Program-made: the position numbers and the translations under genes | DNA from: Synechococcus lacustris | Lineage (GTDB): Bacteria; Cyanobacteriota; Cyanobacteriia; PCC-6307; Cyanobiaceae | Length of the DNA stretch: 64,000 nucleotides | Direction of reading: 5' to 3' | Assembly (NCBI GenBank): GCA_903943975.1 | Contig: CAJAQB010000013.1 | Span: 248,001 to 312,000, forward strand | Part shown: positions 33,688 to 54,395 of the stretch, piece by piece | Layout: every line of letters starts with the position of its first letter | Numbering within the stretch: position 1 is the stretch's first letter | Notes under the pieces: model-generated | Databases searched by the model: none | What the model was told of the DNA's origin: nothing | Seen by the model: only the letters and a program-made list of their open reading frames with translations

Positions 33688-34130
33688 TTTGCTTCACCTG
33701 GAGATTTGTTGAGCAGCATCCAGTAAAGACCGAGTTCTTTTACAACTTTCATGAATGAATCTGAATCAACTGGTTTAACTAGGTAGCTGTTGATGCCTAG
33801 GTCATAGGCGCGAACCACATCGGATTCCTCCCTCGAGGATGTTAAGACCACAACGGGCAAGCGTCGGGTGAGTTCTTCGCTGCGAATTCGACGTAAGACA
33901 TCCAAACCATTGATGCGAGGCAACTGTAAATCGAGCAGTACCAGCCTGACCCTCTGAATGTTGATCTCTGAATGCTCTCCAAAAATAAAATCGATCGCCT
34001 CGGCACCATCCTTCAGCCACATTATTTGGTTGTCTAGATGGCTTTCGCATAAGGCATCCATTGTCAATTCTGCATCTGCTGGATTGTCCTCGATCAACAA
34101 GATCTGTGTTTCAGTCGCTTGGATTGTCAT
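33684..34130 (-). CDS. Single-domain response regulator, Rcp1-like
   Basis: 148 residues forming one receiver with no output domain: ILLIEDNPADAELTMDAL, phospho-Asp67 in LVLLDLQLPRINGLDVL, VVVLTSSREESDVV and the SYLVKPVDSDSF lysine. It resembles Rcp1-type regulators paired with sensor kinases having a similar C-terminal core. Starts and stops overlap with the kinase and the HD-GYP gene by ATGA on both sides. It probably relays phosphate or acts as a sink. Confidence 0.93.
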   Translation of the reverse strand: MTIQATETQILLIEDNPADAELTMDALCESHLDNQIMWLKDGAEAIDFIFGEHSEINIQRVRLVLLDLQLPRINGLDVLRRIRSEELTRRLPVVVLTSSREESDVVRAYDLGINSYLVKPVDSDSFMKVVKELGLYWMLLNKSPGEAK

Positions 34131-36487
34131 GAATTAGTACCTGGGCTTTGGGAATGCCTCTGCAAAGGCAGAGTGAATGTTAATTTGGCACCGTGACCAA
34201 TCTGGCTCTCACCCCAGATGCGGCCATGGTGGCGGTGGATAATCCGCTGGCTGAGGGCAAGGCCCACACCAGATCCCTCGAATTCTGCTTGACTATGTAA
34301 GCGCTGGAATACACCAAAGAGTTTGTCTGCATAGGCCATGTCAAACCCCACGCCATCATCTTGGACCCAGTAAACTGTGTCGTTGCCTTCAATTTGACCG
34401 CCTACATTTATATGGGCTGGATTTTGTTTCCGCGTAAACTTAATTGCATTTGATAGTAGGTTGACCCATACCTCTTTCAACATCGCAGGATCACCTGATG
34501 ATTTTGGAATGGCTTGGCATGTGAAGTTAATCTGGCGCTCTGGCTCCAACTCGATCAGTTCATTGGCAGTCGCATTAGCCATCGCCTCCATGTCAACTGG
34601 CACTAAATGCATCTCGCGCCGGCCCAGCCTTGAAAAGGCCAGCAAGTCGTCAATCAGTTTGCCCATGCGAACGGCGTTTTGGCGTACTACCTGCAGGAGC
34701 CGCAGGCCTTCCGCATCGAGTTTGTCGCCATAGCCAATCAGGATCTTGCGGCTGAAGCCATCAACGGCCCGCAAGGGGGCCCGCAGGTCATGGGAGACGG
34801 AATAGGAGAAGGCTTCCAGCTCCTGATTGGCGGCCAATAGTTCAGCGGTGCGTTCCAGTACACGCTGCTCCAGCTCTTCGCTGAGCCGCTGCCGGTCGGC
34901 CTCTATCTGTTTGCGGGCAGTGATGTCGCGGGCGGCACCAAAAATACCAGCCACCTGCCCCTGGGAGTCTAGATAAATGCTGGCGTTGTAGAGCACGTAC
35001 ATCACACGGCCGGAGACATGCTTAAGGCTGAGGGCGTAGTCCTTCACCGATCCCTGGGCTAAGGCTTGCCGGTAGCCAGCGCGTGCCTTTTCGGGTTCCG
35101 TGAAGAAATCGGAGAAATCTTGGCCCACCAGGGATAGGCGTGGCAAGCCCGTGGCCTGCACCATGGCTTCGTTCACATCCTCGATCAGGCCATCGCTGCT
35201 GATCGTTACCAGGGGGTCGAGGTTGGTTTCGATCAGGGTGCGGGCGTACTGGGAGCCTTCTACTGCCAATTTCCATCGGTCTTCGCTTGCCCCTAATAAT
35301 TCTTCCCGACTTTTGATTCTTTCCGTAAGTTCTTTGGTAATACTCATGGAATTGATTTGGGTATTTATCAATGCGAGCATCAACGTCCATAGCAGGCCGG
35401 AGACTGCTAGGCCGCCGACCAGCGTGAACCATGCGGGTGCGTAGCTAATCCGGTATGCGGTTGAGGAGGGCTCAAATACCAGCAGCCATTGCTGGCCGCC
35501 AAAGAGTATCTTGCGTTGCAGATGTAGCAGCGAATTTTGCTCAATACTCAGCTTGGATTTGCTATTGAATAGCAACTCGTCAGGCGCTTCCTTGGGGCCA
35601 GCGTAAATTTGCAAGTCAACTACTTTCCCTTCCCGACTCATCGAGTTATTGAGAATCCCAGCCATGAGGTCATTCATGCGGTAGGGGCTGTAGACCCAGC
35701 CGACCAGGCCAGCACGTCTTTGTTCCAAGGTATCTACCGCTGCTCCGTTTCGATAGACGGGTACATACATGAGAGTCCCTGCCTGGACTTCCTTGCCCAT
35801 TTCTTGAACCAGCGTCACCTTGCCTGACAAGGCTGGCTTGTCGGTGTCACGGGCCTCGATCATGGCTGATCTTCTTGTTGCTTCTGAGAACATGTCGAAT
35901 CCGAAGGCCCGCAGATTCCGGCCACTGAAGGGTTCAAGGAAGATGATTGATGTGTATATTGAGCGTTTACCTTTTGGCCAGACTTTGTAGCCAGGAAAGC
36001 CTTCGCTGCGAATCTCGGAAATGTGGCTAGCGAGTTTATCTGGAGGAATGGCTAGTGAGTAGCCAATCCCCTGCCACCCAATAATATCTCTCTCTAACTC
36101 CAGTGTATGAACGTAGGCACGCCATTCCTTTCGATTGACTTTCTCTGAAGCTGCAAAAAGAGCAGATGCGCCTCGAAGAATTGTTGCGTAGGTGCCTAGT
36201 CGAGCCTGGATCTTGAGGGTTACCTGATCGCAGGAAAAGCTAAATCGCCTTAGTGTTTCCGCTTCTATGGCCTGCTTCACCTTAAGACTAGCAAAAACAG
36301 TTGCCACCAAACTAACAACTATAATTGCCCAAGCAGGTGCTGTTTTTCTAGAGAAGTGCCAATTTATTCGGTCGCCTCCGCTGTGGCGGGGGGGGGGGGG
36401 CTTGCTAAGGGCTTTCCGGGTGCCATGAAAATCCCACTGGGAGAGGTCGGCATGCTTATTTAGGTCGCCAAAAACAAAGTAATCCAA
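34127..36487 (-). CDS. CHASE-PAS sensor histidine kinase with 5' C tract
   Basis: 786 residues from TTG at 36487. A cytoplasmic N-tail of about 50 residues precedes a first membrane helix (WAIIVVSLVATVFASL). A periplasmic CHASE domain with GWQGIGYSLAIPPDKLASHI is followed by a second helix near 330-350 (WFTLVGGLAVSGLLWTLML), a PAS domain (about 410-530) and a kinase core with phospho-His566 (YSVSHDLRAPLRAV), N-box NLLSNAIKF and GSGVGLALSQ. CHASE domains bind small extracellular ligands. Codons 30-34 are a run of 13 C residues, so slippage would truncate the protein upstream of the first helix. Confidence 0.9.
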   Translation of the reverse strand: MDYFVFGDLNKHADLSQWDFHGTRKALSKPPPPRHSGGDRINWHFSRKTAPAWAIIVVSLVATVFASLKVKQAIEAETLRRFSFSCDQVTLKIQARLGTYATILRGASALFAASEKVNRKEWRAYVHTLELERDIIGWQGIGYSLAIPPDKLASHISEIRSEGFPGYKVWPKGKRSIYTSIIFLEPFSGRNLRAFGFDMFSEATRRSAMIEARDTDKPALSGKVTLVQEMGKEVQAGTLMYVPVYRNGAAVDTLEQRRAGLVGWVYSPYRMNDLMAGILNNSMSREGKVVDLQIYAGPKEAPDELLFNSKSKLSIEQNSLLHLQRKILFGGQQWLLVFEPSSTAYRISYAPAWFTLVGGLAVSGLLWTLMLALINTQINSMSITKELTERIKSREELLGASEDRWKLAVEGSQYARTLIETNLDPLVTISSDGLIEDVNEAMVQATGLPRLSLVGQDFSDFFTEPEKARAGYRQALAQGSVKDYALSLKHVSGRVMYVLYNASIYLDSQGQVAGIFGAARDITARKQIEADRQRLSEELEQRVLERTAELLAANQELEAFSYSVSHDLRAPLRAVDGFSRKILIGYGDKLDAEGLRLLQVVRQNAVRMGKLIDDLLAFSRLGRREMHLVPVDMEAMANATANELIELEPERQINFTCQAIPKSSGDPAMLKEVWVNLLSNAIKFTRKQNPAHINVGGQIEGNDTVYWVQDDGVGFDMAYADKLFGVFQRLHSQAEFEGSGVGLALSQRIIHRHHGRIWGESQIGHGAKLTFTLPLQRHSQSPGTNS
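36388..36400. repeat. Homopolymer of 13 C (coding strand) in the CHASE kinase gene
   Basis: Thirteen consecutive G on the plus strand, read as C on the coding strand and translated as four prolines plus the first base of an Arg codon. It sits 87 nt after the TTG start and before the first membrane helix. Tracts of this length are typical of slipped-strand phase variation. Confidence 0.9.
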
Positions 36488-51981: not shown

Positions 51982-52040
51982 GCTGCTGCTGCCAGCAGTT
52001 GCATGGGTGGGCCAGATCAGGGTTGCAGTCTTAATGTAAT

Positions 52041-52104
52041 TGTGCTAAACAATACAAAATCGTACTTACAAATGTGCTAAGTAATGTAAAATTGTATTTA
52101 AAGG
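52041..52104. repeat. Two 32-bp degenerate tandem repeats
   Basis: Copies start at 52041 and 52073, both with TGTGCTAA and the A+T-rich body AATNNAAAATNGTANTTA. Differences are nearly all transitions. They lie upstream of the duplicated C-tract copy in the region before the GGDEF gene. Confidence 0.75.
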
Positions 52105-52117
52105 GCGTGCCCGTTTG

Positions 52118-52165
52118 CCCCCCCCCCCCCCTGTGAAGCGCCAGCCCTTTCGCGCTTGCTCGCTT
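52118..52165. repeat. Upstream copy of the C14 tract plus 34 bp
   Basis: Fourteen C (52118-52131) and the next 34 bp repeat the segment 52380-52427 inside the GGDEF gene with one mismatch (T at 52150, C in the gene copy). Spacing is 262 bp, direct orientation. Here the tract is outside any supported gene. Confidence 0.92.
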
Positions 52166-52217
52166 GCCTTGCCTATGAGTTAATCAACCTGCACGGGGCA
52201 TGGGCATGGCAACAGAC

Positions 52218-52246
52218 AACTTATGCAGCAGTCTGATGCATAAGTT
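52218..52246. promoter_or_regulatory. Perfect 10-bp inverted repeat upstream of the GGDEF gene
   Basis: Arms AACTTATGCA (52218-52227) and TGCATAAGTT (52237-52246) are perfectly complementary with a 9-bp spacer. No T run follows that would make it a good terminator. It lies 122 bp before the TTG start and may be an operator. Confidence 0.6.
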
Positions 52247-52367
52247 TCGTTACAAGCACCTGAATAATCCATGCATCGGTTAATCCTAAAGATATTCAAA
52301 CGAGCATGTACAGGTCCCATGCCCGCAACTGGCGGCGATCCGGCATTAAACCCCAGACAGTATCCCC

Positions 52368-54395
52368 TTGGATATATCGCCCCCCCCCCCCCCTGTGAAG
52401 CGCCAGCCCTTCCGCGCTTGCTCGCTTAGCAAGCTAGGCCGATATAAATTTCTCTACTTTTTATTGGCGATTGCAGCAATGTTTGTTGTAGACATATGCG
52501 GGCCGCCGGAACTTTCGTTATTTTATTTGCTCTGGCTGCCTGTTTTATTGGCTGCCAACGTGCTTCCGGCTAGGCAAGTAGCGCTTCTTGGCGTTGTCGC
52601 ATTTAGCCTGAGCATAGTAGATGGGCTCGTCTATGTCCATGCTTTTCGCTCCCCTCACTTTATTATTGAGATCATCGCCTCGCCGGTGATATCGCTGTTG
52701 GCGGTGTTAATGGCGGCTAATCGTGAAAAATCAATGCGGTTGCTGGCGACCGATCAGAAGTATAAGCTGTTAGCTGAAAACGGATCCGATGTAGTCTTCA
52801 GGATAAACAATGTAGGCATTATTGAATGGGTATCTGAATCGGTCACTAGCCTGCTTGGCTTTCAGCCCAGCCAATGTATTGGCCAGCTATCAGTAGACTT
52901 TGCTGCCCCTGAAGACAGGCCCACCGTAAGATCCTACATCGCCAGGGCCCATCAAGGGGAAACAACACGTTTTGAGGTGCGAGTATCCACAAGCAGTGGC
53001 GACCTGCACTGGGTGGAAGTTACCATACGCCCGATATTTGATGCAAATGGCATCTACCAGGGCCATGTGGGCAGCCTGCGCGATATTCAGCTAGAGCTGG
53101 AGGTTAGGCAGTTAGCTGAAAATAAAAAAGCTATGCTGCAGGCCACACTTGATTCCTTGCTTGATCCCCATGTATTACTTACGGCCGTGCGGGATCAAGA
53201 CGGCAATATCATTGATTTTATCTACGCTGAAGCAAATCAGGCCGCCTGTAGCTATAATAAAATTGAGCGAGACCAGCTAATTGGCGCTCGCCTGCTGGAG
53301 ATTCTGCCGGGCCAGGCTGGCTCAGGCATGCTGGAGATGTATAGCAAAGCAATTGAATCAGGGCAGCCCTTGGCGCTAGATGATTTCGCTTACTTCCACG
53401 AAAACTATAATGAAGAACGCTATTTTGATGTTCGCGCTGTGCGGGTTGGCGATTCACTCAGCTATACCTGGCGCGATGTAACTGATCGCCACAATGCAGC
53501 TAAGAAACTAGTGGCTTCCGAGCTGAATTTCCGCCTCTTGGCAGAGAATTCCTCCAGTGTGGTGATACGAACTGGAGATGACTACAGGGTAACTTGGGTT
53601 TCCCCCTCGCTTTTGAACACGCTCGGCTGGGAACCACAGGAATGGATAGGGCGCCAATGGGCTGAATTTATCCACCCTGAGGAAGTGACGGCATTTGCAA
53701 ATGCAATGCAGAAGCTGACAAGTGGTAGATCAGCAGGGGTGGATCGGATTAGAATTTTGGCTAAATCTGGTGAATTCAACTGGATAGATATAATTTCCAG
53801 CCCCTTTCGCCATGCCGATGGGAAATTGGAAGGCCTGGTGGCTTCATTCCACACAGTGGATGAGCAGGTTGCCTCGCAGCAGGAGCTGGATCAGCGAGCT
53901 CGCACCGACCAGCTGACCGGCCTACTCAACCGCAAGGAAGTGCTGGATCGCTTTGATTTAATCAATAATCACGGCTCCCGCACTGGTAAGGAAGCAGCCG
54001 TGCTTTTCTGTGACCTGGATCGATTTAAGAATATCAATGATACCTATGGTCACCTTATTGGCGATCAGGTGCTTTGCACTATTGCGGATCGCATCAAGAG
54101 CTGCTTGCGAGAAAATGATTTAATTGCTCGTTTTGGTGGTGATGAATTCCTAGTGATGTTAGTTGGTGTGCAAGATCTAGAGAATGCAAGTTTAATCGCT
54201 GAGAAGCTGCGGCTTGCTTGCCTAGAGCCTATGCAATCAACGGCGGGTGAAATTTATGCAAGCCTAAGTATTGGCGTAACTCTGGCCCGAAAAGGCGAGA
54301 GTAGTGATGCAATGATTTCTCGGGCGGATAGGGCCATGTATCTCGCTAAAAAGCAAGGCCGAGATCAGGTTATACCCATACCAGTGACTGGCTAG
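52368..54395 (+). CDS. Membrane PAS-PAS-PAS-GGDEF diguanylate cyclase with 5' C tract
   Basis: 675 residues from TTG at 52368. Codons 5-9 are prolines encoded by a 14-C run. Hydrophobic segments fill about 25-115 (LYFLLAIAAMFVVDICG, LLWLPVLLAANVL, a third and a fourth), then three PAS domains (about 125-245, 250-365 and 375-500). The cyclase domain has the GGDEF motif at 590-594 (ARFGGDEFLVML) and an intact RxxD inhibitory site (RENDL) five residues before it, so an active, product-inhibited enzyme is expected. No in-frame start exists between tract and first helix that would escape a slippage event. Confidence 0.9.
   Translation: MDISPPPPPVKRQPFRACSLSKLGRYKFLYFLLAIAAMFVVDICGPPELSLFYLLWLPVLLAANVLPARQVALLGVVAFSLSIVDGLVYVHAFRSPHFIIEIIASPVISLLAVLMAANREKSMRLLATDQKYKLLAENGSDVVFRINNVGIIEWVSESVTSLLGFQPSQCIGQLSVDFAAPEDRPTVRSYIARAHQGETTRFEVRVSTSSGDLHWVEVTIRPIFDANGIYQGHVGSLRDIQLELEVRQLAENKKAMLQATLDSLLDPHVLLTAVRDQDGNIIDFIYAEANQAACSYNKIERDQLIGARLLEILPGQAGSGMLEMYSKAIESGQPLALDDFAYFHENYNEERYFDVRAVRVGDSLSYTWRDVTDRHNAAKKLVASELNFRLLAENSSSVVIRTGDDYRVTWVSPSLLNTLGWEPQEWIGRQWAEFIHPEEVTAFANAMQKLTSGRSAGVDRIRILAKSGEFNWIDIISSPFRHADGKLEGLVASFHTVDEQVASQQELDQRARTDQLTGLLNRKEVLDRFDLINNHGSRTGKEAAVLFCDLDRFKNINDTYGHLIGDQVLCTIADRIKSCLRENDLIARFGGDEFLVMLVGVQDLENASLIAEKLRLACLEPMQSTAGEIYASLSIGVTLARKGESSDAMISRADRAMYLAKKQGRDQVIPIPVTG
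52380..52393. repeat. Homopolymer of 14 C inside the GGDEF gene
   Basis: Fourteen consecutive C starting at codon 5. Gain or loss of one base gives an early stop downstream, so tract length sets whether the cyclase is made. An identical tract occurs 262 bp upstream, outside the gene. Confidence 0.92.

Follow-up and report, generated by a model that had tools for sequence, protein, structure and literature searches.

In a 64,000-nt stretch of DNA (hereafter, the window), a run of 14 cytosines lies at the 5′ end of a predicted diguanylate cyclase (DGC) gene, and a second run of the same length is found a short distance upstream. Does this arrangement form a switch, in which slippage within the tract would vary the enzyme from cell to cell, or did the tract expand neutrally? 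We regard the former, in which the C14 tract would be a slippage-prone 5′ switch and one of a lineage-specific set of candidate contingency loci, as the most economical functional reading, and we give it about even odds (a probability near 0.48) on what the sequence offers. Phycobilisome and KaiC/KaiB gene content, together with relatives (Cyanobium is among the best named matches), indicate that the host is a picocyanobacterium. Its genome comprises 2.47 Mb on 23 contigs, and the genome-wide statistics given below derive from pattern searches and fetched stretches.

A predicted diguanylate cyclase gene with a duplicated C14 tract

The gene downstream of the tract (52368–54395, plus strand) encodes 675 amino acids when read from a TTG codon and 666 when read from a GTG at 52395. 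The predicted protein consists of an N-terminal hydrophobic transmembrane (TM) region, followed by PAS domains and a GGDEF domain (PF00990, match at 3.2e-43). The RFGGDEF motif in its translation is intact, in keeping with the definition of the GGDEF family by a domain with an intact GG(D/E)EF motif; the I-site RxxD, here REND, is intact as well, and the joint motif reads RENDLIARFGGDEF. Based on the profile match and these motifs, the gene is a predicted TM-PAS-GGDEF diguanylate cyclase. It resides in a segment with a GC content of 0.49–0.56 (50–55 kb of the window), compared with a surrounding backbone near 0.65, and is flanked by a nicotinamidase-like gene on one side and a Ham1-type NTPase gene on the other. 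A PAS-GGDEF protein that matches query residues 116–660 at 37% is encoded on contig JAGWXF010000021.1, which is filed as an Actinomycetales MAG.

The downstream C14 tract (52380–52393, plus strand) marks the 5′ end of the DGC gene, and the upstream one (52118–52131, plus strand) lies 3′ of the nicotinamidase-like gene, which has an isochorismatase fold. Each run is part of one copy of a 49-nt direct repeat (copy 1, 52117–52165; copy 2, 52379–52427; both on the plus strand). The copies are spaced 262 bp apart and are 98% identical, with a single mismatch, T/C in CCCTT[T/C]CGCGC, which is synonymous when both are read in the DGC frame; the 3′ part of copy 2 encodes the VKRQPFRACSL segment of the protein. 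The first-pass annotation had described a C14 run that recurs with its adjoining sequence 262 bp upstream with one mismatch, and had pointed to a duplication at the tract. The 49-nt repeat bears out both statements, and the tract and its duplicate are a real observation, the product of a partial duplication. The 18-nt core of the repeat, TGTGAAGCGCCAGCCCTT, has exact matches in these two copies alone, genome-wide. We rejected a dispersed repeat or mobile element, as the core is found only twice in the genome, and neither the rest of the genome nor 60 relatives contain a match to the intergenic segment.

Runs of at least 13 C, counted on either strand of the window, number 5, against a mean of 0.10 and a maximum of 3 in 100 dinucleotide-preserving shuffles. 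Like the tracts of contingency loci, the DGC tract is longer than chance would produce. Both copies have the same tract length of 14, although they differ by one substitution, and so offer no hint that the length changes rapidly.

Start codons and reading frames around the tract

At the assembled length of 14, the sole in-frame start codon upstream of the tract is the TTG at 52368–52370, which is also in the DGC frame at lengths of 11 and 17. An ATG at 52319–52321 (with a second one at 52271) enters the frame at 13 or 16, and another ATG at 52306–52308 enters it at 12 or 15; all of these codons are on the plus strand. Each of the three frames upstream of the tract therefore has an open start codon, so that no tract length closes the DGC gene outright. 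In addition, an in-frame GTG (52395–52397, plus strand) directly follows the tract, and its use is independent of tract length. With this codon just 3′ of the tract and an in-frame upstream start available at any length, simple ON/OFF frame switching is not implied. With regard to the placement expected of a contingency tract, a change in length alters the frame of the upstream starts, whereas the GTG at 52395 stays length-independent. Two earlier proposals are qualified accordingly. The tract does span codons 5–9 if translation begins at the TTG at 52368, but not if the GTG directly after it is used; and slippage does shift the frames of the upstream starts, but the frame switching proposed for it is not obligatory.

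Several comparisons bear on the choice between these codons. The distance from the start to the first TM helix in homologues and two paralogues is roughly comparable to that of the DGC read from the GTG, and a decayed paralogue has an ATG shortly downstream of its C18 run. These distances suggest that the DGC may start at the GTG at 52395, with the C14 tract as leader rather than coding sequence. Comparison of codon usage among the alternative N-termini involved segments too short to discriminate.

Recombination between the repeat copies would create a further set of frames. After the 262-bp deletion, a GTG would be in the DGC frame at a tract length of 12 or 15, as the first-pass annotation had proposed, but this codon lies at 52107–52109 (plus strand) rather than at 52108. 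A TTG at 52115 would be in frame at 14, and nothing upstream would be in frame at 13 or 16.

Promoter-like and palindromic elements in the leader region

The only sigma70-like promoter match (52065–52092) scores 9/12, which is at chance level with 0.6 matches expected in shuffles. It is located upstream of both tract copies, within two tandem 31-nt imperfect repeats (52038–52100, plus strand; 77%), and the sigma70-like search of the locus found no promoter between the two copies. Because the promoter-like site precedes both copies, recombination between the repeats would probably cost part of the leader but not the promoter; the expectation that the deletion would eliminate the native promoter is thus not supported. 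The 31-nt tandem repeats (TGTGCTAARYAATRYAAAATYGTAYTTA), which end just upstream of tract copy 1, are themselves a possible promoter or operator.

Between the tract copies lies a near-perfect palindrome, AACTTATGCAGCAG-T-CTGATGCATAAGTT (52218–52246), which may serve as an operator. Among the stretches examined, the gapped form TTATGCA-N(5-9)-TGCATAA is present only here and at L067:4063–4083, and both sites lie near long C tracts, those of the DGC and of a phycobilisome linker gene. ATGCAT motifs are also found upstream of the GGDEF-EAL gene on contig C10 and of the DGC homologue in related genome G180 (L333). An RNA element was considered and rejected (no Rfam match; ordinary folding energy, z −0.5), and no terminator was found at the DGC locus.

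Long poly-C/G runs form a distinct class in the genome

Nine C/G runs of at least 12 are present genome-wide, and eight of these are 13–18 long and distributed over seven loci. The counts fall from about 41 9-mers to 8 10-mers, one 11-mer and one 12-mer, after which come the eight runs of 13–18. Runs of at least 13 are surrounded by DNA of lower GC content (0.50–0.59 within ±1 kb) than the 9- to 11-mers (mean 0.64; Mann-Whitney P 5e-5), and a first-order Markov model predicts about 0.1 such runs per 2.47 Mb of low-GC DNA. The tail of ordinary base composition is therefore ruled out as their source, since they sit in the parts of the genome where they are least expected. No A/T run above 9 was found in the sequence examined, so that the long tracts are C/G only.

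The placement of the runs is also non-random. All seven long-tract loci are at a 5′ gene boundary, compared with 21 of 48 shorter tracts (Fisher P 0.006, with crude gene calls). Four of the seven are in GGDEF or HATPase genes, for which the genome has about 9 and about 15 matches, respectively; the binomial P is about 3e-7 for an assumed gene total, with the enrichment tests picked after the loci had been seen and with two of the loci (D and E) only 3 kb apart. The long runs thus stand apart as a non-random class, found where accessory genes, most of them regulatory, begin, and the membership of the DGC tract in this class strengthens the idea of phase variation beyond the DGC itself.

Locus A is a C13 tract (sense strand; window 36388–36400, minus strand) at the 5′ end of a CHASE-PAS-HisKA-HATPase kinase gene (ORF about 34127–36487). 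At a length of 13 only a TTG is in frame, and at 14 two ATGs (36453 and 36426) are; because the stretch from the tract to the TM helix contains no ATG, GTG or TTG, the tract of this gene must be coding. The DGC tract pair on the plus strand is locus B. Locus C is a G18 run (C10:1508) in a CHASE-PAS-GGDEF-EAL gene (L068:1439–4249), within the part that encodes the N-terminal TM region; lengths of 16/19 and 17/20 place ATG starts in frame, and at 18 only a GTG is in frame. The ORFs at loci A and C are long and intact. The assembled length puts no upstream ATG in frame at loci A, B and C, while a neighbouring length does, a pattern that with three cases may be due to chance.

Locus D is a C14 tract (C3:60366) at the junction between the end of a KaiB gene and the PAS-HD gene that immediately follows it; a KaiC gene precedes both. 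In this stretch (L067:10694–14548, minus strand), with its order of KaiC, KaiB and PAS-HD, the KaiB domain would become joined to the PAS-HD protein at a tract length of 13 or 16, and the fusion would resemble the KaiB-like domain arrangement of SasA. Locus E, a C18 run (C3:63506), precedes a PAS-GGDEF paralogue of the DGC, which is decayed and has lost part of its GGDEF domain through an internal deletion. The runs at the remaining two loci are intergenic, upstream of a phycobilisome linker gene (locus F, C3:52087) and between a trmFO/GidA-type gene and a MarR-LuxR regulator operon (locus G, C21:102592). A C/G11 run at C13:36324 (L126) also lies in low-GC DNA. It falls near the beginning, at codon 17, of an ORF of 309 aa that weakly matches a LysR substrate domain, and is possibly a shorter member of the class.

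Distribution of the tracts among homologues and relatives

The tract is absent from DGC homologues (43–53% identity), and its position is not conserved. Three congeners contain no runs of at least 13 and no match to the DGC gene at the thresholds used, and a search of the congeners for the nicotinamidase neighbour gene, made for comparison of the locus, returned no matches. A tract at the same place but of differing length in related strains, as expected of a contingency locus, was thus not found among these homologues and congeners, which is a weak comparison, as they are not conspecific strains.

In the wider family, 92 of 300 genomes have at least one run of 13 or more. In the sample inspected, these tracts belong to miscellaneous genes, including housekeeping ones (priA, hrcA, trkH, cobN and a site next to rpoA). 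Among 20 proteins scanned there was no family-wide enrichment in signalling genes, and the bias toward such genes therefore looks specific to the present genome. In one relative (G225:C1 around 92527; L307), a cobN/magnesium-chelatase-type gene consists of two overlapping frames that break exactly at a C18 run; either the gene is phase-variable or the homopolymer length is wrong.

A proposed slippage switch and its alternatives

The proposed switch builds on the tracts, the repeat, the gene identity, the reading frames and the genome-wide class with its placement, as described above; the rate of slippage, an effect on expression and any benefit are inferred. Gain or loss of a C would allow a different upstream start to feed the DGC frame (the TTG at 14, or an ATG at 13/16 or 12/15), and would alter the leader immediately ahead of that GTG at 52395 which follows the tract. 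Cyclase expression and the N-terminus of the protein, and hence c-di-GMP, would then differ among sister cells. By a rarer route, the 49-bp repeats would recombine, with the loss of 262 bp and a shorter leader as the outcome. Extended to all loci, this reading becomes a combinatorial switchboard, in which the DGC, the CHASE-GGDEF-EAL protein, the CHASE kinase, KaiB/PAS-HD, the MarR/LuxR operon and the phycobilisome linker would be set at random, producing clonal heterogeneity in c-di-GMP, light or clock signalling; we consider this wider version unlikely.

Several observations speak against a switch at the DGC, among them the equal length of the two copies and the miscellaneous genes that bear tracts elsewhere in the family. 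The GTG just after the tract, if used, makes the frame of the tract irrelevant; the tract location is not conserved, given homologues that lack it and congeners without long runs; and the broken tract-bearing paralogue at locus E is what relaxed selection would be expected to leave. The main rival, a tentative but serious one, is that the tracts grew by slippage where selection is weak, as it would be in partly decaying genes of accessory islands and close to starts, since a frame shift there does no harm if another start codon can be used. Such tracts would vary but have no function. Neutral growth of this kind is consistent with the lower-GC accessory islands that carry the tract-bearing genes, with the pseudogene among them, with unconserved tract positions, and with the unrelated genes that bear tracts in relatives (priA, hrcA, cobN and the site next to rpoA). 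The downstream GTG of the DGC and its open frames at every length would likewise tolerate slippage. It accounts less readily for the strong bias toward 5′ gene boundaries and regulatory genes, for the restriction of long tracts to C/G and not A/T, and for the kinase and GGDEF-EAL ORFs, which are long and intact, yet have upstream ATGs that the assembled length does not put in frame. The absent conservation, the miscellaneous tracts of relatives and the equal lengths of the two copies fit neutral expansion as well as a recent adaptive set.

A start at the GTG at 52395 also leads to a different functional account, in which the tract serves as a 5′ leader or spacer whose length tunes transcription or initiation quantitatively, with no frame switch. 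That the GTG directly follows the tract argues for it, as do the N-termini of the homologues and of the paralogue with an ATG shortly after its C18, and the linker and MarR/LuxR tracts, which lie upstream of their genes in intergenic DNA. Against it, the tract of the CHASE kinase must be coding, and no promoter element was found adjoining the DGC tract; we hold this account to be improbable. Errors in the tract lengths or in the duplicate copy are more improbable still. Homopolymers are error-prone, some related assemblies have poly-C at contig ends (G011), and the cobN gene split at C18 may reflect a length error in another assembly; but the tracts studied here are contig-internal with coherent genes on both flanks, and single-contig relatives have such tracts as well. 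Different flanks and one internal mismatch also set the two copies apart, so that the duplicate is not a simple assembly echo.

Comparison with known phase-variable systems

Simple-sequence phase variation is known mainly from host-associated bacteria and from surface structures. Our searches of an open-access library turned up neither slippage-driven control of a c-di-GMP enzyme nor homopolymer phase variation in a cyanobacterium. If the tracts described here vary, slippage bet-hedging would extend to the second-messenger networks of abundant aquatic phototrophs, and the tracts could let single cells switch signalling randomly.

The present loci resemble simple-sequence contingency loci (PMC11868660, PMC2831843) in having a long homopolymer at the 5′ end of the gene, in occurring several times per genome, and in that a change in length would alter frame or initiation. 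They differ in their targets, which are regulatory and c-di-GMP enzymes and a phycobilisome linker rather than surface structures or methyltransferases, and in their cyanobacterial host; moreover, every frame of the DGC has a start codon, and the tracts are known from one assembly. Orsi et al. (2010) described 5′-located homopolymeric tracts in prokaryotic genes and proposed reversible inactivation (PMC2831843). The 5′ location is shared, but the tracts overrepresented in that study are poly-A/T of 3–7, and poly-C/G is generally underrepresented, whereas here only C/G tracts are long (13–18).

In the reviewed literature, phase variation is linked to c-di-GMP through DNA inversion or epigenetic switches (PMC11868660). 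An epigenetic case is provided by a c-di-GMP enzyme in E. coli (PMC11868660, PMC9286219), and the c-di-GMP phosphodiesterases PdcB and PdcC of Clostridioides difficile (genes pdcB/pdcC) are phase-variable by site-specific promoter inversion (PMC9286219, PMC11868660). As with pdcB/pdcC, phase variation at the DGC locus would act on an enzyme of c-di-GMP turnover and produce population-level heterogeneity; it would do so through a slippage tract rather than an inversion, and with a cyclase as the main target.
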